Assembly: GCA_030374765.1 (NCBI GenBank)
Contig: JARGXX010000116.1
Span: 682,001-746,000 of the forward strand
Direction: 5' to 3'
Origin: Agarophyton chilense
Lineage: Eukaryota > Rhodophyta > Florideophyceae > Gracilariales > Gracilariaceae
Length of the DNA: 64,000 nucleotides
Shown here: piece after piece, positions 1 to 38,300 of the stretch
Layout: the number at the start of each line of letters is the position of its first letter
Position numbering within the stretch: position 1 is the stretch's first letter
Notes under the pieces: generated by a model
Told to the model about the DNA's origin: nothing
What the model saw: only the letters and a program-made list of their open reading frames with translations
The model's database searches: none
Program-made: the position numbers and the translations under genes

Positions 1-622
1 TCGAAAATGGCGTATCGTAGGTTCTGTACCGCTTTCTTCGCTTACGGGAGACTCTTCTCTTCTCCATAGAGACCGACTGAATACAAATGAGGAACAGCAA
101 CCGGTGGAACATTGTCGGGAAGTCGGTCGCGAATGGAGCCCGGCTTTTGCTCGCCATCTTTCGGGTTGTATCCAGACCTTTGAAGAACTCTGTCAAAGTG
201 ACATTCTTCGGGATGCCTTTGAACTCCACCGCCTCGTACGCGTTCCAAAAGTCCCTCACGCGCCTATCTGGGTCCCCATCCCTTATATCCAGCAACCTCG
301 CCGAGAAATAAATCTGACAGTTCGAGCCCCTCATTCCTACAACTCGGAGCTCATTTTCTGTGTAATTGGTGTGGTCGGGACCTAGGAGAGTATAAAAAAA
401 CTTCGCGGTCTCCGGTAGGATGTGGTGATTGGCAATTGCGAAATCGATGAATACAGTGTGCCCCACTTTTCGCGGCTCATCTTCCTCCCGCCTCGTTAAT
501 GCGTACCGATCACGCAAATCCAGACACGCCCTGATAAGTTCATCCCCCGTACCAAACAGTTTACCCATTTCGAAGGTGTCTGCCGCAGGCGATGAAGAAG
601 TTCTCGTGGGTTCTGGAGCCAT
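1..622 (-). CDS. Unrecognised protein, N-terminal 207 residues (runs off the window)
   Basis: From the ATG at 620-622 the minus strand stays open through base 1 with no stop, giving 207 residues of an incomplete protein. I do not recognise it. It starts with a Ser/Pro-rich segment. A mixed, globular-looking region follows (about residues 20-165), including FYTLLGPDHTNY and a stretch rich in Arg/Asp (DIRDGDPDRRVRDFWNAYEA). The last 40 residues turn hydrophobic and then very basic (KRRVSRKRRKRYR). The basic end could be a nuclear-localisation or nucleic-acid-binding segment, or could already be intron sequence. The start lies about 170 bp from the palindromic array and the gene is transcribed away from the ParB/dioxygenase gene. 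Its length without a stop and its clean codon use support real coding sequence. A mobile-element protein is possible but I see no diagnostic motif. Confidence 0.55.
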   Translation of the reverse strand, partial: MAPEPTRTSSSPAADTFEMGKLFGTGDELIRACLDLRDRYALTRREEDEPRKVGHTVFIDFAIANHHILPETAKFFYTLLGPDHTNYTENELRVVGMRGSNCQIYFSARLLDIRDGDPDRRVRDFWNAYEAVEFKGIPKNVTLTEFFKGLDTTRKMASKSRAPFATDFPTMFHRLLFLICIQSVSMEKRRVSRKRRKRYRTYDTPFS

Positions 623-794
623 TTATGTACATGTTCAAACAACCTCACGGGCGGTCGTCACGAGAGCCTGAGTAAAAGAGAGCAGCGGGTGCGGCTGGGG
701 GCGGCTGGGTACGGAAAAATTGTGAGTACAGTTGAGGAGCGCGCACGGAAGAACGGTTGTTGCGGAACGACTTCGCAGCTATCCTGGTTGCATT
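623..794. other. Short spacer between partial gene and palindromic array
   Basis: It presumably contains the promoter and 5' UTR of the partial minus-strand gene. I see no clear TATA box. The outer end of the palindromic array begins at 795. Confidence 0.3.
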
Positions 795-2107
795 CTGTCG
801 GCCGTCAGAGGTGCGCTCCGACTTCATCGGGGGTCCCGATGAAGTCCCCACGCACCTCTGTCGGCCGACATAATACATATAATTTTGTAATTTTTAGGAC
901 GCCCAGGTGTACACGGTGCATTCTGTCGGCCGACAGAGGTGCGCTCCAACTTCATTGGGGGTCCCGATGAAGTCCCCGCGCACCTCTGTCGGCCGACATA
1001 ATACATATAATTTTGGTATTTTTGGAATGCTCAGGTGTACACGGTGCACTCTGTCGGCCGACAGAGGTGCGCTCCGACATCATTGGGGGTCCCGATGAAG
1101 TCCCCGCGCACCTCTGTCGGCCGACATAATACATATAATTTTGTAATTTTTGGAACGCCCAGGTGTACACGGTGCACTCTGTCGGCCGACATAATACATA
1201 TAATTTTGTAATTTTTGGAACGCCCAGGTGTACACGGTGCCTTCTGTCGGCCGACAGAGGTGCGCGGGGACTTCATCGGGACCCCCGATGAAGTCGGAGC
1301 GCACCTCTGTCGGCCGACAGTCGACCAACATCTCAGAAACGCATCATGCGTGATGTTATGGCGTATTTGTCGGCCGACAGGGGTGCCGTGCGACTTCATC
1401 GGTCCACCGATGAAGTCGCAGCACACCCCTGGCGGCCCACAAATGGCCCGAATGGTGTCCCTACAACATGCTAGTGAATTGTCGGCCGACAGGGGTGTGC
1501 TGCGACTTCATCGGTGGACCGATGAAGTCGCAAGGCACCCCTGTCGGCCGATAAATACGCCATAACATCACGCATGATGCGTTCCTGAGATGTTGGTCGA
1601 CTGTCGGCAGACAGAGGTGCGCTCCGACTTCATCGGGGGTCCTGATGAAGTCCCCGCGGCTCTCTGTCGGCCGACAGAGTGCACCGTGTACACCTGAGCT
1701 TTCCAAAAATTACAAAATTATATGTATTTTGTCGGCCGACAGAGGTGCGCGGGGACTTCATCGGGACCCCCGATGAAGTCGGAGCGCACCTCTGTCGGCC
1801 GACAGAGTGCACCGTGTACACCCGAACGTTCCAAGAATTACAAAATTATATGTATTATGTCGGCCGACAGAGTGCACCGTGTACACCTGGGCGTTCCAAA
1901 AATTACAAAATTATACGTCACCGTGTACACCTGAGCGTTCTAAAAATTACAAAATTATATGTATTATGTCGGCCGACAGAGTGCACCGTGTACACCTGGG
2001 CGTCCTAAAAATTACAAAATTATATGTATTATGTCGGCCGACAGAGGTGCGCGGGGACTTCATCGGGAGTCCCGATGAAGTCGGAGCGCACCTCTGTCGG
2101 CCGTCAG
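795..2107. repeat. Array of hairpin modules forming one giant inverted repeat
   Basis: Each full module is a 76-bp imperfect palindrome. It is bounded by the 14-bp self-complementary CTGTCGGCCGACAG and contains the inverted arms GACTTCATCGGG / CCCGATGAAGTC. Full modules start at 795, 923, 1051, 1244, 1601, 1730 and 2032. Reduced copies with only the 14-bp core lie at about 1179, 1859 and 1969. AT-rich spacers of 52 bp carry TGTAATTTTTGGAACGC and GTGTACACGG. In the left half the period is exactly 128 bp (795, 923, 1051, 1179). Modules are not perfectly symmetric: three bases read TCC on one arm and oppose CCC on the other, which gives each module a direction. Direction flips across the centre (about 1460), so the whole 1.3 kb folds back on itself. 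This suggests a palindromic (MITE-like or Helitron-like) element amplified in tandem. I could not assign it to a known family. Confidence 0.85.
1317..1605. repeat. Inner inverted repeat at the centre of the array
   Basis: Two arms of about 125 bp face each other around a non-repeated loop of about 36 bp (1442-1476). Each arm holds CGACCAACATCTC, an inner palindrome GCATCATGCGTGATG, and a variant hairpin module with GACTTCATCGGT/ACCGATGAAGTC arms and GGGGTG where the outer modules have GAGGTG. The inner modules are thus a distinct subfamily sitting inside the outer one, as if one palindromic element had inserted in another. Confidence 0.75.
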
Positions 2108-2422
2108 GATATTTTTAATTTTTTAATTTTATTTTCTTGTATCGCCTACCAAGCCAATAGGCGTGTTTGTGATGGAAAGAGACAAGGAGTTTCTTGAGTT
2201 TGAAACTAAGCGGACGTAGCTCAGGTTGAAACTAAGCGGACGTAGCTCAGGTTGAAACTAAGCGGACGTAGTTCAGGCTGATTGCAACGAACTGCTCTCG
2301 GGAGTGTTCCGGATAGTCGCCACCAAAGGAGCTCGATCTAATACGTCTTAGTCTGTATACCATAAAAGGCTCAAAGCGCTCTGCGACCATTTGCAACCTC
2401 GACCGACTACGATCCGATTAAA
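2108..2422 (+). promoter_or_regulatory. Upstream region of the ParB/dioxygenase gene
   Basis: This 315-bp stretch starts with an AT-rich run (2110-2140), contains three tandem 26-bp repeats (2200-2277), and has an AT-rich TATACCATAAAAG segment about 65 bp before the start codon that could serve as a TATA-like element. Promoter function is an inference. Confidence 0.35.
2200..2277. repeat. Three tandem 26-bp repeats
   Basis: Three head-to-tail copies at 2200-2225, 2226-2251 and 2252-2277 each begin TTGAAACTAAGCGGACGTAG. The first two are identical, and the third differs at one base (gctc to gttc). They lie 146 bp upstream of the ATG at 2423. They could be binding sites for a regulator, or a minisatellite. 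They are too few and unspaced to be a CRISPR array. Confidence 0.9.
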
Positions 2423-5400
2423 ATGATGACTCGAGGCAAAGCGAAAGCGAGGGGTACTCCGCGGGGTACTCCACGCGCCACTCCGCGAAAAGCTACATCG
2501 GGAAACAATCTGGCTGGTGGGGATAGGGTGGCGTTGTTCCTGGCGGATGGGACTGGGAAGAAGAAGGGTACTATGGTTGGCACTGCGGAGTTGAGAGGTG
2601 TTGGGGGCAGTGGAGCGGCCGGGAAGGCGCTTTGCCGAGCGATGCATGGCCATTCGTTGCGCGAGTCTGCGAAGCCGGGAGAGGACTTGGTGGCCATCTG
2701 TAGGACTGAAATTAAGGAGGGGATCAACTCCAAGTATCCGTACTCCTTCAAGGGAGCAGAGGAGCCGCCGGAGTTGCTGAAGGATATGGTGTCGGCAGGT
2801 ATATACACATGGGATACCTCGATGATGACACGCGCCTCCTCTGTGCTGACTCCAGGGCCTTCTCGGCTGGAGACTCCCAAAAGCGCGACCCCCTCGAAGG
2901 AGTCTGGTACGCCTTTGAGGGGGAAGAGGGCACAGCCAACAACAGTGCCGCCGGCCATGAAGCAACCCGTCAAGCCGAAAAAGAGGGTGACGATAGTGGA
3001 TGATTCTGATGAAGAAGTTGTGGAGGTGGGGTCAGCGGTGAATGTACGCGGGGATTTGCACACCGGTCCCGACTTGGAGTTGTTCGATGACGGCGATGCC
3101 GTTCCTTCGCAGGAAGTGGATAGGACTCTCGTGGAAAAGAAGATCTCTGCTTCAGATTATGACCAGTGCCGCTTGATTGTGGACATAGATGACATACAAA
3201 TCCCCGAGAAGACTGTCAGAAGTGTGAATGCGGAACACAAGGCGGCGACGATGGCAAAGTGCAAAACGTTTGGCTGGCTTGCGTCAGCAGGGTCGATTGC
3301 TGTTGCCATCGTCGGGGGAATGGAATTAGATTTCAGTGAAATTGTTCACAATGGGAGGGTAGTGGTGCCTGTCATACTCATTGACGGTCATCACCGCGTC
3401 TTGGTTCTGCGAGATCTGAAGAATGATCCATCTGAAGGGAGAAAGTGGTTGGAAATTGTGCGGTCTCTTGATGTCGTTCTTTGGAGACGAAAGGACCGGA
3501 AGCCTTTATCGCTGAACGAAGTGCTCGGTCTTGGTAATGTACTCAATGAAATGAGTTCAAATGTGTTGAAGATGAGTTTCGCCGACAAGGTTCATTCGAC
3601 AGTGTCCTTCATTTGCAACTTGATTGACGATAAGAGAACCAAGTTGGCTGACCTTACTCCGACACGGATAGCTGGGGCGCTGAAGACGAGCGAAGCTATA
3701 GGAATCTACAGCTTGCGCCACTTGAATCGCTATGCGACTCTTGGGTTGAAATTCGTCAGGAGCGAAGGTCTCCTGGAGTTCTTTGAGAACGTATGCAAGG
3801 AGGGTCCAGTGCTAACGCTTGCGCATGTGTCGAGTGACTTGTTGTTAGGACTCGAAGACGAAATATTCCGTTTCGCAATCCGTTGTTTGCAGCTACATGT
3901 GAGGGTGAGGATGGGTTCTACAGGGAATATGGGACGTTTCCAGGAGACGCGAAAGCAGTTCTTCCAATGCGCCATAGGAATGTTCCAACTATGCGAAAGG
4001 GCGGGAAAGGAGAAGGGTCTGACGGCGGGGAAGGTTCTAGACAGCACAATTGTGATGGGAAAGAACGAGGTGTCTTTAAGGGAGTACCATTGCATGCAAA
4101 CGGCGAAGATGGAGCTCAGTGGTCCGAAGCGGTTGTGGCCGGGGTTGGTGTCGAAGAGGATGAAAATCGCACAAAGGCGGATTGAAGGCGGTCTGAAAGT
4201 GAGTCTGGCGTCCCCAAGTGCGGAGAAGGATGTGGTGGAGGTGCCACCTTCTGTGAATGTTCCTTCGTCTGGTGCTGGGGAGTCTGTACCCCACCAGGAA
4301 ACCGTGGTTCCCAGACGCATCACACAAACTAGAAAAGGTACTGAGCGCGTGCTGGATGCTGCGGGTGAGAGGGTGATGGAACCTAGACAGAGAAAGGGGA
4401 AGAGAAAGGCTGTGGTCATTAGTGATGATGAACGCGAGTATGAACAGCCTTTAAAGCGGAAGAGGAAGAGGAGAAAGACGGTGGGCACATCTGCGGCTCA
4501 AATACCGGCTGATGTGGTGGATGTGTTCAAGAAGATGAGCAGGAAAGAGCTGAAGCGCTTCTTGAAGGAACATGTACTCAATGTTTCCTCACCGAGTGAG
4601 GATGAACTGGATGATGACGGGGGGCAGGGTGCATTTGTAGGGGACGAAGAGGAGGAAGGTGTGCAAATGCGTGGCTTCGAAGACAATAATCCAGAGGGTG
4701 TTTCGAAGGGGCTGAAGAGGGCGGGACCGTATGCGGGGGGGTCGGGTATGGCGTGGGTGTACTTGGTGAATGCACTTCCAAGCGAGTGGCCGGCGGGTGA
4801 AAATGGAGTGAAGCATCAGCACCTCTGGATGCAGATGATTTACCTACGGAACAAGCACAGGGCGGAGTGCTTGAGGGTAGAAGACTTGAAAAGTGTGCAC
4901 CATGCGATTTATTGGCGTGCTGCTCATAACAGGCACAAGGAACTGGGTTCCACGAAAGAACCGGTTCTTGGGGTGATTCTACCGACGAAGAACCACCCTG
5001 TGAATGAAGAGCAGGCGATATGGATGGCAGCAATGGAGAGGGATGACTTGGCCCGCGAGTACCTCGCGACTAAGAGAAGTGAGCTGATGGAGAAAGGATT
5101 TTGTGTGCTGGAAGAGTTTGCCACGGACGAGGGGATGGCGGATGAGGCGAAGAAGAGGGGGGTGAACTTCGATGGGGATGTGACTGGGACTTTGCTAGAG
5201 TTCTTCCAGACGGATTTCTTGAACCAGCCGGACTGGACGATTGAAGGGAATAGAAAGAAATGGGACCCTATAATCAACGCTGGTGAGGACAGAGATGCTG
5301 GAGATAGAATGGAGGGAGTTGGGCGGTACATTACGACGAAGGTGGGGATTGTGGATTCTGTGGAGGGGGACGAGAACAACGTTTTAATGGTGAGGAAAAG

Positions 5401-6085
5401 GGCATTGTTGGATGCGAGGTTTGGACAGATTGCGGCCGCTCTTCGGTTGTGCAACAACCGGTCGGGGAAGAAGAGGATGTATGCCCCTGAAACAGGGGGG
5501 CGAGTGCTGTGTACAGTGGAGGGCTGTCCAAGGCAGGTGTTACATACGGACTTTGGAGGACTGACCGATGCCGAGAAGAACGTCGGAGAGGTTCCAGGGT
5601 TCCTCATGATGGCGTCGGGAGCGAGTTCGTTTATGCTTTGGGTTTGTGAGAGGTCACACAACATGTACGTGCCCGACGACAGGAGCTTGAAGCGGGTATC
5701 TCGGACGATGGTAGTGAGGAAGTTCAGGATTCCGCCGTACTCCATTTTCATTGGAAGAGGAGATGTGTTTCATGCTGGTGCTGGATACGAGGATGCATTG
5801 GTTAAGGAAGTTTGCATGAGGTATCACATGTACTTGGTACCGGATGGGTACAAGCTACCGGACGCAGTGCATAGGCAACCAGCATTTCGGCCTAAGTTCG
5901 AAGAGGATGATTCCAACAAGGGTGATGATGAAGACGTCCAGGTAGATGAGGATGAGGAGTTGGATGAAGATTATAAATGGAAGTTGTTGAAAGTGGGGAA
6001 GAGGAGTATGAAGAAGAGGATGATGAACCTGGGATGGGTCTCAACTCGGCTAACACAGATGGAGAATATGAAGACGGCGGTATGA
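2423..6085 (+). CDS. ParB/sulfiredoxin-like domain fused to a 2-oxoglutarate/Fe(II) dioxygenase-like domain
   Basis: Single-exon gene of 1,220 codons. Residues 1-210 are basic, then Ser/Pro-rich and acidic. Residues 250-390 resemble the ParB/Srx fold: a 'preferred value' strand (LIVDIDDIQIPE), then VPVILIDGHHRVLVLRDL, where DGHHR (321-325) matches the nucleotide-binding GxHR-type box of the family. Residues 600-710 are low-complexity and very basic (NLS-like KRKRKRRK). The C-terminal third looks like a phytanoyl-CoA/TET-JBP type oxygenase: EKGFCVLEEF as the entry strand, H1041-T-D1043 as the iron HxD pair, H1117 in GDVFHAGAGY as the distal histidine, and R1133 as a possible 2-oxoglutarate contact. 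The family would hydroxylate protein or nucleic acid, and a nuclear chromatin or DNA role is inferred. The double ATG (2423/2426) fixes the start. The C-terminal tail is probably frameshifted. Confidence 0.75.
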   Translation: MMTRGKAKARGTPRGTPRATPRKATSGNNLAGGDRVALFLADGTGKKKGTMVGTAELRGVGGSGAAGKALCRAMHGHSLRESAKPGEDLVAICRTEIKEGINSKYPYSFKGAEEPPELLKDMVSAGIYTWDTSMMTRASSVLTPGPSRLETPKSATPSKESGTPLRGKRAQPTTVPPAMKQPVKPKKRVTIVDDSDEEVVEVGSAVNVRGDLHTGPDLELFDDGDAVPSQEVDRTLVEKKISASDYDQCRLIVDIDDIQIPEKTVRSVNAEHKAATMAKCKTFGWLASAGSIAVAIVGGMELDFSEIVHNGRVVVPVILIDGHHRVLVLRDLKNDPSEGRKWLEIVRSLDVVLWRRKDRKPLSLNEVLGLGNVLNEMSSNVLKMSFADKVHSTVSFICNLIDDKRTKLADLTPTRIAGALKTSEAIGIYSLRHLNRYATLGLKFVRSEGLLEFFENVCKEGPVLTLAHVSSDLLLGLEDEIFRFAIRCLQLHVRVRMGSTGNMGRFQETRKQFFQCAIGMFQLCERAGKEKGLTAGKVLDSTIVMGKNEVSLREYHCMQTAKMELSGPKRLWPGLVSKRMKIAQRRIEGGLKVSLASPSAEKDVVEVPPSVNVPSSGAGESVPHQETVVPRRITQTRKGTERVLDAAGERVMEPRQRKGKRKAVVISDDEREYEQPLKRKRKRRKTVGTSAAQIPADVVDVFKKMSRKELKRFLKEHVLNVSSPSEDELDDDGGQGAFVGDEEEEGVQMRGFEDNNPEGVSKGLKRAGPYAGGSGMAWVYLVNALPSEWPAGENGVKHQHLWMQMIYLRNKHRAECLRVEDLKSVHHAIYWRAAHNRHKELGSTKEPVLGVILPTKNHPVNEEQAIWMAAMERDDLAREYLATKRSELMEKGFCVLEEFATDEGMADEAKKRGVNFDGDVTGTLLEFFQTDFLNQPDWTIEGNRKKWDPIINAGEDRDAGDRMEGVGRYITTKVGIVDSVEGDENNVLMVRKRALLDARFGQIAAALRLCNNRSGKKRMYAPETGGRVLCTVEGCPRQVLHTDFGGLTDAEKNVGEVPGFLMMASGASSFMLWVCERSHNMYVPDDRSLKRVSRTMVVRKFRIPPYSIFIGRGDVFHAGAGYEDALVKEVCMRYHMYLVPDGYKLPDAVHRQPAFRPKFEEDDSNKGDDEDVQVDEDEELDEDYKWKLLKVGKRSMKKRMMNLGWVSTRLTQMENMKTAV

Positions 6086-6108
6086 TAGTGGATGACGACG
6101 ACGACTAG
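5977..6108 (+). other. Alternative acidic C-terminus in the next frame
   Basis: The main frame ends at 6085 with a basic tail that breaks an acidic run. The adjacent frame, open from 5977 to a TAG at 6106-6108, instead encodes a strongly acidic continuation (EEEYEEEDDEPG, ending DDDDD). It joins naturally to the acidic DEDEELDEDY that precedes it. The simplest reading is a 1-nt indel near 5971-5990, either in this allele or in the assembly. Confidence 0.6.
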
Positions 6109-6131
6109 ATAGTATCTGTTACCTATTGAAC

Positions 6132-6137
6132 AATAAA
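6132..6137 (+). terminator. Polyadenylation signal AATAAA
   Basis: A canonical AATAAA lies 24 nt after the TAG at 6108 and 47 nt after the TGA of the main frame. It is the right distance for the 3' end of the ParB/dioxygenase gene. Confidence 0.5.
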
Positions 6138-6189
6138 GAGTACAATTTGAGGTAATATGTGGAGTAGTCCCCTTTTCTTGTAATAGTGA

Positions 6190-7017
6190 TCAGTCGTCTT
6201 TCAATAAAAACTCCTGAACAACTGGATTGAAACGCGTGAGAGCAGCACTTGCTTTCACTTTCTCATAGTGAATGACAACTGTCGAAGATATCAAGATTAC
6301 GACATCCACTGTGTTACCAAGCAGTATAGGAACACCAGGGCACTGAATGCGAGAGGTGGAGAAGGCGGTTGAAGAGAGTGCAGCGAAAGTGCATGCCGAC
6401 AGCCTCATACCGAGAAGTCGGAAGGTTACAGCCGGACTGGATATGAATAAAGCCTGTTGAAAAGAGTGGGAGAGGGCGCCAAGCACGAGGTTCATAAAAG
6501 AGGTTCTCCGTGGTTCCGCGGTCATTGTGAACTTTGTGTTAAGATAGGACTCTGGAAAGAAGGATATAAAAACAAGCTGGAGAAGATATGCCAAAGCGCC
6601 AACTGCGGCCCCTCCTGTGGAGAAGGCCATACAATTTGTCTTCACGTCTGATGAAAGGGTACCGCTGACTGGAATGAAGCGGTGAACGAGGAAAAGTATG
6701 GCGTTGAGGGGGATGAGTAGAGTAAGGAGTAGAGCCCCGAATTCCAGAAAGGCTCGTTTCTTCCAGGTATATCGCTGGTTTGGATTGAACGGCGTAGTTT
6801 GTAGAGACCCGTATAACGCGTTTATACATTGTACGCCTCCTTCGATTATGAGAATGTGTAGCAGGCTTTGGATAGAACACCTCAATAGCGTTATGAGAAT
6901 GAACCGAAGGAGAGAGTTGAATCTGAATGGAAGCGTATATTGCAGAGCTGGGTCTATAATTCCGAAGAGTGTAGTTAGTGTGATTGTGAACGTTAAGGTC
7001 GATGTGAAGAGTGTTTG
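6190..7017 (-). CDS. Multi-spanning membrane protein, unrecognised (5' end not fixed)
   Basis: The minus frame is open from just below a TAG at 7018-7020 down to the TGA at 6190-6192. It encodes about 275 residues with at least five hydrophobic segments, for example FGALLLTLLIPLNAILFLV, GALAYLLQLVFISFF and VDVVILISSTVV, separated by short loops with Lys/Arg. There is no good ATG at the upstream end, so the first exon or start is missing. The open frame at 7034-7375 immediately upstream may be its 5' part, joined by a short intron or lost through a frameshift; an AG acceptor at 7018-7019 would keep this frame. No transporter family is recognisable. Its 3' end converges on the ParB/dioxygenase gene only 82 bp away. 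Confidence 0.5.
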   Translation of the reverse strand, partial: QTLFTSTLTFTITLTTLFGIIDPALQYTLPFRFNSLLRFILITLLRCSIQSLLHILIIEGGVQCINALYGSLQTTPFNPNQRYTWKKRAFLEFGALLLTLLIPLNAILFLVHRFIPVSGTLSSDVKTNCMAFSTGGAAVGALAYLLQLVFISFFPESYLNTKFTMTAEPRRTSFMNLVLGALSHSFQQALFISSPAVTFRLLGMRLSACTFAALSSTAFSTSRIQCPGVPILLGNTVDVVILISSTVVIHYEKVKASAALTRFNPVVQEFLLKDD

Positions 7018-7033
7018 CTAACTGAACATCTTA

Positions 7034-7375
7034 TTAAAGGCGTTCCGGTTTGCTAGTCTTCCTTGTAGGCTGCACATAGGTAACGATATGATACCGCTCT
7101 TTGAACAGTTGTTTCAGAGTATCTTGGTGCTGTAGGGAGTTGCGAGTGGGGAGCCTCCTGGTGGTCGTACAAATGTCACGAATCTCGTCCATGAGCTCGT
7201 CGGTGATATGATTCTGGAACCCTCTGACTTCGACCACATTCTGGGTGGTTGGAAGTTTGATTTGAAGGACTCCGTCGATCGTGATAACCGTTCGTTGTGG
7301 AAGAATATCCACAGCTGCTGAGCGTTGGACAGAAGAACAAGGGCGTAGGGAAAGACGTGCTTCGTAGCGCTGCAT
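7034..7375 (-). CDS. Soluble N-terminal part of the adjacent gene, or separate small protein
   Basis: From the ATG at 7373-7375 this frame gives 113 residues. They look like a soluble domain: alternating strands (TVITIDGVLQIKLP) and a helix (HITDELMDEIRDICTTTRR). It ends in a basic tail 14 bp before the open frame of the membrane protein begins. I infer that the two belong to one gene, with this as the N-terminal region, because neither is convincing alone and they sit in the same orientation with almost no spacer. The function is unknown. The open frame extends upstream of the ATG without another ATG until about 7447. Confidence 0.35.
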   Translation of the reverse strand: MQRYEARLSLRPCSSVQRSAAVDILPQRTVITIDGVLQIKLPTTQNVVEVRGFQNHITDELMDEIRDICTTTRRLPTRNSLQHQDTLKQLFKERYHIVTYVQPTRKTSKPERL

Positions 7376-7797
7376 GCTTGAGAAGGTGAGGAGAGTGTTG
7401 TCTAGAAAGGTATTTGTGAGGGACTGGATACAGTATGTTGAGCACAATGAAGTAGGGTGGTCATCGGTGGATATATATATGTAGTGATCAAATTAGTTGT
7501 TAGGTTGTTGCCGTATCTCTGTCGCGGAGTATGAATAATTGTTATGAATGAAAACCTTTGATAGGCTGTAGGAGCGGTTATTGGGTACAGACTTAATTGC
7601 AAAGTTGAAAGATTTATGAAGAGTGGTTGGTGGTTGTAGTGATGATTTGTGATGTACGAAGCAATTCTTAATATCGTTTCATATATTCTGACGTGGTGTC
7701 GTGCGGATAGCAGTCTTTATCGAGGCAGCGAAGGAGATGGACATATGCTTTAGAAAGGAGGACTTGTTTTTATTGGAAGGGGTATATGAATGAAGTA
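7376..7797. other. Intergenic, nothing recognised
   Basis: AT-rich sequence between the putative upstream part of the membrane-protein gene and the stop of the Rossmann-fold gene. No repeat or RNA gene was seen. Confidence 0.4.
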
Positions 7798-8622
7798 CTA
7801 CCCATTGAGGAGGACGTTCAAGAAGTTCGTATGGAAAGGGGCGGGGTCACGGTTTCCAATGGATTTTTGGGCGTTAGAAACGTTGTAGAAGTAGACGTTC
7901 CGGAACTCAAAGTCTGAGAACGAGGTGGTGAACTGTGTAAGTGTTTTTCCGTGGGCCAGAAGTTTTTGGAGTGTTTCTGTTGTATTGCAGGCGATTCCTG
8001 TTTCGGATGTGACGATGGCGAGGAGCTCTTTCATTATGGTTGAAACGACTGTGCGGTGTTGTACTGCAACTTCGTGCATTGTGATAAAGCCATAAGAGGA
8101 GCCGACGAGATTAAAAGCTGATATCCATACGAGTTTTTCGTAGTAAGCTTTAGAGAAGGAGGGCTGGTCGACGACATGACAAGTGAGGCCTGCGGTACTG
8201 AGGCGATTGGCGAGTACGGGAGCCCATTTGCCGGTGGCAGTTGTGAGACCATGGGGACTGAGGAGGGTGACACCGTCCTCGGGGGGTGCGTTAAGGGAGG
8301 GGACGGCGAGGAAGAGAACGGCTTTGGTGCAGTTTTGGAGCCCATAGGTTGAAAGAAGTGGGAGAATGTTTCCGTTCTGAAGGAAGACCAGATCCTCTCT
8401 GCGGGAGGAAGGGCAGAATTGAATGACGTCTTCGAGTGAATGATTTCTGCCGCAGAAGAAAATGGGGCCGTCGGGGATGTATTGCGCAGAGATGAATTCT
8501 TGAGTTGAAAGAAAAGCATCTTGTGGGGTGCCGTTGTTGCGAAGCAAAGTGCCGATTCGGCCTCTGCCGACAATAACGGCTGGGTCGGAGGTGCAAGGGA
8601 TGGCAGTGAGAGAGTCGGTCAT
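7798..8622 (-). CDS. Rossmann-fold NAD(P)-binding protein, ketopantoate-reductase-like
   Basis: Intron-free gene of 274 codons with a clean ATG at 8620-8622. The N-terminus reads PAVIVGRGRIGTLLRNNG, a GxGxxG dinucleotide-binding loop at residues 19-24 after a first beta strand. A second half containing KAYYEKLVWISAFNLVG resembles the start of the helical C-terminal domain of ketopantoate reductase/6-phosphogluconate-dehydrogenase-type oxidoreductases, where a conserved Lys precedes an Asn. The length fits the family (about 290-310 residues). The reaction cannot be fixed from sequence. Similar plastid-lineage proteins are annotated only as 'ketopantoate reductase-like', so a role in pantothenate synthesis should not be assumed. 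It lies alone between AT-rich spacers. Confidence 0.6.
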   Translation of the reverse strand: MTDSLTAIPCTSDPAVIVGRGRIGTLLRNNGTPQDAFLSTQEFISAQYIPDGPIFFCGRNHSLEDVIQFCPSSRREDLVFLQNGNILPLLSTYGLQNCTKAVLFLAVPSLNAPPEDGVTLLSPHGLTTATGKWAPVLANRLSTAGLTCHVVDQPSFSKAYYEKLVWISAFNLVGSSYGFITMHEVAVQHRTVVSTIMKELLAIVTSETGIACNTTETLQKLLAHGKTLTQFTTSFSDFEFRNVYFYNVSNAQKSIGNRDPAPFHTNFLNVLLNG

Positions 8623-9234
8623 GTTGATTGCGAAAGGTGTCTGGAGTGCGGTGTGCTTGGAATTGAAGAAGTGGTGGGGTGTGGCGAGTGTGGAGATATG
8701 ATTACATAGAGAAGGAGTATGGTTGTGGAGGAATGGGTGTTAGGGGTTTTTGGGAAGGAGTTTAAATTTATGATATTGAATGGTGTTTATTGTGTTAAAA
8801 GTGTAGTAGTGTGTGTTGTTATGGAAGTCATAACGGGAAAGAGGGCTTATGAGTAATCGGCGGTTTGTGTTACGAATGAGTGTGATTTATTATAAATGAG
8901 AAGGCTATGAAATTGGGAGTAGTGAGGGAGTGCTGAACATGATAGAAGGTGTAGGAATATGGATGGGAGTGTGTGAGTGAGCAATGAGTGGGGTGAAGGG
9001 CATCCGGAGCGTAGATGCAGGGGTGTACGAGGTTACTGAAATTGGGCGAGCGCGCGCGAAAAGCGGGTCAAAAAAAGGAGATAAAAGGCCGGAGGTGGGC
9101 GAGAGGATTTTCGAGGGGGGGTGCTGTGTGGGAGGCTGCGGGTACTACTGGCCGCACTAAGGTGAGTGCGCTTGCGCTTGCGGTGGCTCTTGTCGATAGC
9201 TTTCGCGGGCGTTGGCGATGTCGAGCGGATCCCT
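8623..9234. other. Intergenic, G/T-rich on the plus strand
   Basis: A 0.6-kb spacer containing the presumed promoter of the minus-strand reductase-like gene. An in-frame ATG at 9015 opens a short basic frame that ends in a good donor (AAG|GTGAGT at 9161), so a 5' exon of the next gene is possible but not established. Confidence 0.3.
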
Positions 9235-9666
9235 ATGGGGCTGGAGATGGGGAAGCTGTGGAGGGCGAATGAGGAACTGAAGAGGCGTGTGAAGGTGTTG
9301 GAAGTGCACATGGAAGGGGTGGGGGAGATTTGGGGTGCGCGGAAGGTGTTGAAGGAGGTGGGAGAGGAGAGGGGGAGAGCGAAAGGGTCGCCGGTGACGC
9401 CAGGGAGACGCGGGGAGTCCACTGAGATGAAGAAGGGGAGAGAGGAATGGAAAGGGGGAGGAGTTGGAGAGAGTCGGCTGAAGAAGAGGAGGGTTGGTAA
9501 GGATGTGGAGAAGAAGGGTGGGAATGTTTGTGTGGTGGGGCAGCCGGGTGTGAGGAACTTGAGCAGTGGGGAGGTGGACGAGGTTAAGAATGCGGTGGTG
9601 GACTTCTTCAACCTCAAATACCCTCCCGGTGGAACGCTGGAGCCTAGTAAGCAAAAGGGCCAGTAA
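9235..9666 (+). CDS. Doubtful small basic coiled-coil protein
   Basis: An open frame from the ATG at 9235 to the TAA at 9664-9666 encodes about 143 residues. A helical, heptad-like start (MGKLWRANEELKRRVKVLEV) is followed by a low-complexity Lys/Arg/Gly/Glu segment and a more ordered end (SSGEVDEVKNAVVDFFNLKY). Base composition is unusual, with long G-rich runs. No family is recognised. The frame may extend upstream by an intron (donor at 9161). It could also be the remains of a transposon capsid-like protein at the edge of the graveyard that starts here. Confidence 0.3.
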   Translation: MGLEMGKLWRANEELKRRVKVLEVHMEGVGEIWGARKVLKEVGEERGRAKGSPVTPGRRGESTEMKKGREEWKGGGVGESRLKKRRVGKDVEKKGGNVCVVGQPGVRNLSSGEVDEVKNAVVDFFNLKYPPGGTLEPSKQKGQ

Positions 9667-10169
9667 TGAGGTAGAAGGTACTGACGACTGCCTTGGTATG
9701 GATCTCCACCTAGAGCGGTCAAAAGTGACCAGTAAACAGCAAATGCAGATTAAACTGCATTAAGTGGTCAAAACACTAAGATGCATGGAGTTCTTATTTC
9801 CAAAATTTTTTTTTCCAGGTGCGGAACTAGCGCAATCTGCAAAATTCTTAGATTTTTTGGCTTTTTATTTACAAAACTAGCTATCTAGCACACTTATCTA
9901 GCATTCCGAGAACACAGACGCAGTGTTGGACGGAGCCCCAGAAGGCACATCCTCAGAGGAGGGCTGAAACGGGTTGGACCCGGCGTTCGGATTCATCGCG
10001 AGAGATCGAGCTGAAGAGCGGTGAGGAACAGAATGCTGTTGAGAACTGTAAGAGTTGGTCAGGCGGCCTGGATTTCGTGATGACGATGAGTACCCGGAAC
10101 ACCGGTCCGACTGCGTATAAACGCTTCTTGCGTCCCCCATGGTTCGCGCTTAACAAGGGGGGTATGTAG
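9667..10169. other. Decayed sequence, nothing certain
   Basis: Contains a short open frame on the minus strand (9898-10140, Ser/Asn-rich) of no recognisable family. It looks like the left edge of the transposon-derived region. Confidence 0.3.
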
Positions 10170-35338: not shown

Positions 35339-38300
35339 TCACCGATCGCTACGCTGGGCGATCGGCATTGGTGCGTCAGAGGCCGATCCCGGGTCGTGCT
35401 CCATGAGAAACACGAAAGGGATTTCCATACGGTCGATATGAGGAGTGTAGGTGATCCTGGACACCGGAACACGAGGGATCAGAAATATCTTCGTTTCTTC
35501 TAGATACAACTGAGAATCGGGGAGGTGCCCATACTGCGCGACTGCATAATGGTACAGAAATACCGTAAAGCGGATGTCTAAAACGGTTCCTATTCCGGGG
35601 TGAACCCTGTCAGCCATTTCCATAGGAAGATTTCCATGAGAGCCAATGAGGTACGGCCAATATATCCTGAACTGTGCGACGTATAGATGGAACAGATTCC
35701 AAACGACTCTCTCTAACTGAGGTGGTGGGAGACGAAGTGAAGCCATCCAATCTTGTATATTTGAGCCGGGGACGATGTGTTGACTGAGGTTATGCCTTGA
35801 GACCAGCTGATCAAAATCGACTCTTATAGGAAGCAACGTAATATTTTGCTGCACTGGATGGTTCTCTGCATACTCGTCCTCGTCCAATGTCATGACAACA
35901 TGATCAAGAAGATGTCCAGGTCTCCTAGTGTAAGGCTTGAGGCGTCTGATGTGCACACCCTGTCGAGTGTATCGTTGGTTCGGTGAGACCAGAACATATT
36001 TAGGATGCATGGCCTTTACCACGCGGCACGGCCCATAGAATTTGGACTCGAAAGCAAGCCACTTCACATTCGGATTCAAGGCTTCTCCATGGATAACCAA
36101 AACTTCATCTCCTATCTTGAAATGATGGTTATATTTTGTATCATCTTCTCTTTGCGGCTGCTTGTCAACTCTCGCTGCACGAGTGATATTCCCAGCCATA
36201 ACTTCATGTCTCCGACTGTCTGGCGTGGAGTGGTCGATGAGTGGAAGCGGGTCTTCAATATGCATTCTAGGCGGTATTCCATACAAAAGCTCAAACGGTG
36301 AAGCTCCTCCAATCATCTTGCGGCGCCTGTGGCCAAATAACATCCTCCAAAACCTCGTCCCAATCCTTTTTCTTGTCAAATACCGTCTTACCAATTGCTT
36401 TCTTGATTGTACCCACCATGCGCTCCGCCCTACCATTCGACATAGGGGCGTATGCCAGAACTGGTCGAAGAGAGATTCCCTTTTGCTGCATGAATTTCTT
36501 GACAATTTCTGCTTTGAACGCAGTGAAATTATCCGATACTATGGTCAACGGTGGTCCAAATGGAGCAACAATTTAAGACTGAACTAAATCCAACACGACT
36601 GAAGCCGTTTGAGACTTGGTAGCTATGGCAATCGGCCATCCAGTTAGGTGTTCGACGCCAATCAATATGAAACGGTTTCCGAGTTTAGACCGAGGCAGTG
36701 GACCAGCAAAGTCTATGGAAAACGTTGCGAAAAGACTTGTCAGTGGAGCCCTCTGATTCGATCGATAATGAAGCAATGGAGAAATTCGCTGGCAGCCTTC
36801 ACAACTTCGAACGTATCCAACTATATCAAAGAACATCTGGGGCCACCAAAACCGATCACGAATAAAGTTCTTAGTAGATTCGAGACCCCAGTGCCCAATA
36901 TCATCATGAAATGATTTCAGAATCCCTCGACGCTCGTCTTCAGGGGGGACAATTCGTAGTCCATTCTTCGTGCGGCGAAAGAGCTGAGATTCCCAGACAT
37001 AGAAGTTTTTGGCGTTTCTCTTCACAGTAGCTCGCTATTTCGGATCACGCTTCCCCAAAGACAGGTTGGTGAGATAGCGCCCAATGTCCGCACAAAAAGG
37101 ATCAAGATTGCCGAAAATGTTTTCTTCACTATTGTTTTCAGCAAAATTGCAGTCCAACATGTCCGGCGCGTCTCCTTTCGCATATCTTGAGAGATAATCT
37201 GCCGCTGCATTGTCTTTTCCGGGCCGATAGACGATCTCAAACTCATACTCGGCCAAAAGATCGAGCCATCGGGCCAGGCGTCCATGAATATCTTTCTTCT
37301 TGAACGCGTAGCTAAGTCCCTGGTGATCCGTAACGAGCTGGAATGGCTTTGCTCTAAGAAGGTAGAAACGAAACTTTTTCAAAGCAAGAACAACTGCCAG
37401 AGCCTCTTTCTCACATACAGAATAGTTTCGCTCAGCTGCATTCTTGGTTCGGCTGGCATACTGAATTGGGTGAAACATCCCGTCTTCCTTCTTCTATGCC
37501 AATACGGCTCCAAGGGCCAAGCAGGATGCGTCCGTCTCCACTCTAAATGGAGATTCAAAGTCCGGAAAGGCCAGCACTGGCGGTGATGCGAGCTTCTTTT
37601 TCAATGCCAAGAAAGCTTCCATCATTTCTGGGGTGAAGGCCAAATTTTGCTTCCCGGATGTAGCAGCATGGAGTGGGGCGGAGGTCTTCGCAAAGTCTTT
37701 GATGAACCGGCGGTAGTAGCTGGCCAATCCAAGGAATCTTCGGAGTTCTGTGGTCGTGGTCGGGACTTGAGCTTCTTGGATCAAAGAAATCTTGTTCATA
37801 TCCACTGAGACTCCTGACTCATCAATGATGTGACCCAAAAGCGAGATACGAGGGCGTGCAAACTCACACTTCGAAATCTTGATCTTCAAGCCATAGCTGG
37901 AAATGATCTTGATTACTTCAGAGACGTGCTGAACATGTTCCCCCAATGTTCTAGAGAATATTACAACATCATCAATATAAACCCGAGCGAAGGGGATTTT
38001 CCCGAGAACCGAGTCCATCATTCTCTGAAACGTGGCTGGGGCAATCATCAATCCAAAAGGCATGACTTCAAACTGAAAAGTTCCCTGGCAGCAGATGAAA
38101 GAGGTCATTTCTTTGCATTTTGCTTACATTCGAATCTGCCAATAACCCGAAAACAAGTCCAATGTAGTAAAGAAGCAACATCCACCTAAATCGTCAAAGA
38201 TCTGATCCATATGTGGGAGTGGCCAGCGGTCCGGCTTCATGTTCTCGTTCAGAGTGCGATAGTCCACGCAAAACCTCGGGTTCCCATCCTTCTACATGGC

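Follow-up and report, generated by a model that had tools for sequence, protein, structure and literature searches.

The window analysed here is a stretch of 64,000 nucleotides from the red alga Agarophyton chilense (assembly GCA_030374765.1, contig JARGXX010000116.1, positions 682,001 to 746,000 of the forward strand). By analyzing its sequence and predicted protein structures, we could confirm that the open reading frame (ORF) at 2423..6085 combines a predicted ParB/sulfiredoxin (Srx)-like module with a predicted 2-oxoglutarate (2OG)-Fe(II) oxygenase-like domain. We also found strong support for this ParB-oxygenase gene being cargo of a multicopy DNA transposon of the Plavaka group. The anatomy of the element, that is its ends, its copy number, its domain content and the conservation of its catalytic motifs, was observed directly. 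Its extent and right end in the window are as follows.

1..9920, no strand: in-window part of the Plavaka-type transposon; the remaining 9,358 bp are G000:C116:672643-682000
9898..9920, minus strand: right terminal inverted repeat, which reads CGTCTGTGTTCTCGGAATGCTAG on that strand, with the target duplication CA at 9921-9922

A sequence-only reading of this stretch had raised the suspicion of a mobile unit, which the multicopy gene, the inverted termini and the target duplications strongly support. The ParB-oxygenase gene lies inside a 19,278-bp DNA transposon that runs from 9,358 bases before the window through 9920. Similarity to two sister copies, on contigs C117 and C2, spans the genes and flanks a variable array, with the left end set against C2 and the right end against both. 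The two ends are inverted and 23 bp long (CGTC[A/T]GTGTTCTCGGAATGCTAG), and this pattern, with up to two mismatches, gave 205 and 197 matches in the genome (402) against 0 for a reversed control. Identical 2-bp flanks were found at 11 of 12 chosen end pairs, the exception being C2:1231604, and a thirteenth pair, that of a short derivative (L057), also has a 2-bp duplication (12/13 in total). From the ends listed on contigs C1 to C27, 21 end pairs measure 3.0 to 18.9 kb, with one of 39.7 kb. Terminal inverted repeats with target duplications of 2-3 bp agree with membership of the Plavaka group, in which PlavakaA makes duplications of 2 bp and PlavakaB of 2 or 3 bp (Kojima 2025, PMC12730594).

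The transposase ORF lies to the left of the window. Its copy on C117 matches the Plavaka domain PF18759 (E = 1.4e-22, 80.8 bits for a cut-off of 26.3), which places the element in the group by its transposase domain as seen in this sister copy, the one on which the scan was made; the frame is 1,045 aa in the window copy vs 1,137 in C117, and the stretch is 97.8% identical. At least 123 matches to PF18759 were found in the genome (all 123 of those scored, from 235 candidates). The transposase is followed by an ORF that measures up to 923 aa and has no firm family assignment.

We then searched the genome from which the window comes, 79.8 Mb in 135 contigs, for copies of the ParB-oxygenase gene and found at least 38, full or partial (38 of 38 scored matched, from 371 candidates). 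Those other than the window's are 92-97% identical, some of them partial, and 12 of the 38 are without an internal stop. In the 20 fetched copies that we compared, similarity extends past the gene on both sides. The presence of at least 38 copies rules out an ordinary single-copy host gene. A viral gene was also considered and is not supported: none of 17 pattern matches in IMG/VR was confirmed as a relative, and no virus family was found for the eight element ORFs scanned.

The ParB-oxygenase ORF and its parts lie on the plus strand.

2423..6085, plus strand: ParB-like/2OG-Fe(II) oxygenase-like protein of 1,220 aa, open from the ATG at 2423 to the stop at 6085
3164..3631, plus strand: predicted ParB/Srx-like domain, residues ~248-403, with DGHHR at 3383-3397
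4871..5851, plus strand: predicted 2OG-Fe(II) oxygenase-like domain, residues ~817-1143, with HTD at 5543-5551, H at 5771-5773 and R at 5819-5821
5975..6085, plus strand: out-of-frame tail of the window copy, after a 1-bp difference from other copies

Both motifs reported earlier are present. HTD (1041-1043), H1117 and R1133 stand in the translated ORF exactly where they had been placed, and DGHHR is found at residues 321-325, but the 18-residue string quoted around it occupies 315-332, one less than the 316-333 given. All 19 other copies that could be aligned over residues 1-1190 are one base longer than the window copy. The site of the missing base, looked up against one copy (L010), is near the 3' end, so the last ~36 residues of the window copy are out of frame; in L010, the one copy read at this place, an acidic tail stands instead. 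Both motif regions are upstream of the frame change. Sequence searches with the protein gave a sub-threshold chance match only in Pfam, no match in PHROGs or NCBIfam, and two weak matches in the PDB (E = 0.33 and 0.42), both to mRNA export factors; searches of these kinds with its relatives gave no lead either. The protein also has basic, acidic and low-complexity stretches resembling those of nuclear proteins. Directly upstream of the gene, a 26-bp tandem repeat present in about three copies (2200-2281) may represent promoter elements.

Homologues were found with the oxygenase part. A search with residues 760-1165 returned 8 of them (E from 6.6e-128 to 1.2e-47, 33-49% identity over that stretch), none was found with residues 230-620 alone, and four of the 8 proteins listed by a search with a rearranged alignment of six rows were new. 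The HxD...H...R residues are present in all 12 sequences that cover them (11 alignment rows and P0015), while the truncated P0003 retains HSD only; a conserved HxD...H followed by R is what membership of the 2OG-Fe(II) oxygenases calls for. DGxHR is present in 10 of the 11 rows having that part, P0013 reading DGRNR; a further relative, P0006, a hypothetical protein of Gracilaria domingensis, is without the ParB-like (DGxHR) part. As the catalytic residues are thus retained in divergent relatives, at 21-38% identity, the motif pair is not due to chance, and a coincidental pair of motifs in an unrelated ORF can be ruled out. Two relatives differ in their N-terminal parts. P0015 has a Ulp1/C48 protease domain (PF02902) ahead of the same oxygenase domain, with no DGxHR seen, and P0013 has at residues ~70-125 a Cys-rich segment that by eye looks like a zinc-binding PHD-like finger, with no Pfam match.

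In order to assign folds, an AlphaFold2 model was built from 12 sequences and compared by Foldseek and VIA; a fold from the single sequence was uninformative, with a predicted local distance difference test score of 33. The first part of the model matches ParB, Noc and sulfiredoxin, and the last part, more weakly, 2OG-Fe(II) oxygenases. The ten best Foldseek matches are all ParB or Noc, and 21 of 50 VIA rows are of the ParB/Srx type. Some ParB and KorB chains also align with the helices that come after the ParB-like domain, up to ~3990. The canonical ParB box is of the GERR type and the alga protein has DGxHR; on the predicted model this box sits in a ParB/Srx fold. The earlier assignment to the ParB/Srx superfamily is well supported, by structure comparison as well as by conservation. 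The oxygenase assignment is borne out by the conservation of its motif and receives moderate support from structure: 27 of the 50 VIA rows are 2OG oxygenases or their kin, and Foldseek gave no credible match for this part on its own. Its structural matches are KanJ, HalB/HalA, a BesD-like hydroxylase, SnoN and similar enzymes. TET/JBP enzymes are not among the rows listed by Foldseek and VIA, a listing that neither shows nor excludes a TET/JBP relationship.

To describe the state of the copies, 20 were compared, L028 having been dropped because it aligned only in part. Seven of the 20, the window's included, are free of stops over residues 1-1190, and 13 have stops. The eight residues of DGxHR and HxD...H...R are intact in 19 of 20. 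The pooled ratio of nonsynonymous to synonymous polymorphism (pN/pS) is 0.63, from a simple count in which mutation bias was left uncorrected; by region it is 0.55 for residues 1-230, 0.64 for the ParB part, 0.74 for the linker and 0.62 for the oxygenase part. Crude as this count is, it indicates past constraint. One copy, L017, has the metal-ligand Asp replaced by Glu (D1043E, giving HxE) and is nevertheless open over residues 1-1190.

Two further features of the element bear on its possible function, a divergent gene and an array of palindromes.

2..622, minus strand: N-terminal part of a DNA methyltransferase-SET gene that continues beyond the window, with SET preceded by an in-frame stop in this copy
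789..2107, no strand: array of palindromic units with core TGTCGGCCGACA, 16 exact cores, between the two divergent genes

The methyltransferase-SET gene is open over 1,043 residues in the C117 copy, where it matches PF01555 (E = 3.4e-18) and PF00856 (E = 8.2e-5), the SET score being 23.4 bits for a cut-off of 22.4, that is above it but near. In the window copy, the methylase and SET parts are kept apart by an in-frame stop (L029 ~7920, minus strand, outside the window), which the C117 and C2 copies read through. In beta-class N6-adenine methyltransferases the DPPY motif comes before the S-adenosylmethionine-binding motif, and the translation has this order, with DPPYN and then DLFAGTFST. The six best matches among solved structures are DpnA (two sequences), CcrM, RsrI (two) and MboIIA; the N4-cytosine enzyme PvuII is found further down (E = 0.0033). 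DPPYN together with these best matches indicates N6-adenine specificity, and the sequence thus points to a DPPY-class methyltransferase of the N6-adenine type fused to SET.

The array lies, inside the element, within the 1.8 kb that separate the two divergent genes. Its 21-bp unit occurs 243 and 241 times in the genome with at most one mismatch, and 98 of the first 100 places listed are no more than 20 kb inward of an element end. Exact cores number 16 in the window copy vs 0-10 in 20 other fetched copies, two of which have none. L057 (G000:C25:1014683-1017744) is a 3-kb internally deleted derivative that has kept both ends and the array with 5 exact cores; in this one short derivative read, the right end accounts for ~686 bp and the left end for 228 bp of what is retained, along with part of the transposase gene. 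It is possible that the array has a cis-acting role; it may also persist in L057 because hairpins act as deletion breakpoints.

The reading we favour, with about even confidence, is that of a Plavaka transposon of ~19 kb with a chromatin-modification cassette, in which the ParB part would target the oxygenase to the element and counter silencing. Under this reading, the ParB-like module and its helical partner would hold the protein on the element, possibly at the palindromic array, and the oxygenase would there remove or alter a methyl mark on DNA or histones, leaving the element expressed and mobile. The substrate, DNA binding by the ParB part, the array as its site and the anti-silencing role are what we infer; an oxygenase that would act on DNA or chromatin under guidance of the ParB part, as the sequence-only reading had proposed, is plausible. 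An alternative role for the methyltransferase-SET protein could be the repression of rival copies or the labelling of the element as self. A tentative extension, which we consider rather unlikely, is a mark-and-clear system, where the methyltransferase-SET protein would place the element's own marks on DNA and histones, and a ParB-type clamp loaded on the parS-like array would carry an oxygenase that clears host silencing marks; if true, this would be a ParB-parS-like targeting device in a eukaryotic nucleus.

ParB proteins are DNA clamps and partition factors, and L057 has kept the array and both ends, as for a cis-acting site. Both points favour a protein that belongs to the transposition machinery, with the ParB-like module binding palindromes or nucleotides and assembling or segregating element DNA, and the oxygenase modifying element DNA or a partner protein instead of counteracting silencing. 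However, fungal Plavaka families exist both with and without a TET/JBP gene (PMC12730594), so that the oxygenase is dispensable for transposition there, and the array may persist because its hairpins are deletion breakpoints; such a role in transposition seems unlikely to us. The stops in 13 of 20 aligned copies, D1043E in one copy, and in the window copy the stop in methyltransferase-SET together with the frame change in the ParB-oxygenase gene would all suit captured genes that currently do nothing for the element and decay by drift. But catalytic residues retained at 21-38% identity are unexpected for passive cargo, and a pN/pS of 0.63, even as a crude count, indicates past constraint; we judge passive cargo improbable. 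The nearest structural matches, KanJ, HalB, the BesD-like hydroxylase and SnoN, argue for a substrate that is a free amino acid or another small molecule, with no chromatin role, and going by their titles the 27 oxygenase rows are small-molecule or amino-acid enzymes. This list, however, reflects which folds happen to be solved, and the stretches like those of nuclear proteins, the ParB-like module to which the oxygenase is fused and the pairing with a DNA methyltransferase-SET gene speak against such a substrate, which we also find improbable.

Transposons with an oxygenase gene are already known, and it is the present combination that is undescribed in the literature searched: neither a transposon carrying a ParB-oxygenase fusion nor a Plavaka element bearing methyltransferase-SET was found described there. 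Fungal Plavaka and KDZ DNA transposons carry TET/JBP genes, and escape from methylation-based silencing has been proposed for TET/JBP in several transposon groups, including Plavaka (PMC12730594). Like those fungal elements, the alga element belongs to the Plavaka group, has a 2OG-Fe(II) oxygenase gene and makes short target duplications. It differs in its host lineage, in an oxygenase that matches the KanJ/HalB type and is fused to a ParB-like module, and in the added methyltransferase-SET gene; the word ParB is absent from the main text of that paper. Its termini, CGTC[A/T]GTG, also differ from the fungal TGT..ACA (PlavakaA) and CATCA..TGATG (PlavakaB), and it is therefore placed in neither subgroup. 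Oomycete HarbingerS and MuDR transposons also carry a SET gene, with no DNA methyltransferase fusion mentioned in the available part of the same paper. Giant Plavaka repeats of Amoebidium, with matches reported in red algae, have tyrosine recombinases named and, in the excerpt available, neither a ParB-oxygenase nor a methyltransferase-SET (PMC11244446). The bdelloid rotifer N4CMT is likewise a bacterial-type amino-methyltransferase in a eukaryote, tied to histone marks and transposons; in contrast to the transposon-encoded DPPY and SET protein of the alga, it belongs to the host, has SPPY and a chromodomain, and acts in transposon silencing (PMC8885841, which also covers DPPY/SPPY usage in amino-methyltransferases). 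The ParB, Noc and KorB partition and occlusion proteins share the predicted fold and, for some chains, the alignment of the helices after the N-domain, whereas the alga protein is encoded by a eukaryotic transposon and fused to an oxygenase. An apparent 'ParB' in a Microbotryum paper (PMC4469406) proved a false match.

Within one mobile unit of a distant lineage, the element adds an apparently different type of oxygenase, a targeting module of bacterial type and the methyltransferase-SET fusion. If these parts cooperate, they would offer a direct test of how mobile DNA resists chromatin silencing beyond animals, plants and fungi, and the element may have introduced adenine methylation or ParB-like targeting to a eukaryote.

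To the right of the ParB-oxygenase gene the element has five ORFs with no family above cut-off; two of these overlap and lie on opposite strands. They include the following.

6190..7017, minus strand: ORF of 275 aa stop to stop, with hydrophobic stretches, no family match
7034..7492, minus strand: ORF of 152 aa stop to stop, no family match
7798..8622, minus strand: ORF of 274 aa from ATG, ApbA_C at E = 0.025, under the cut-off
9033..9749, minus strand: ORF of 238 aa stop to stop (300 aa in C117 and C2), nature unassigned, no family match

The weak likeness of the ORF at 7798-8622 to the C-terminus of ketopantoate reductase would make it dehydrogenase-like, an odd passenger for a transposon. 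Further along the window, an ORF at 35339-36436 resembles by eye the end of a retrotransposon polyprotein.

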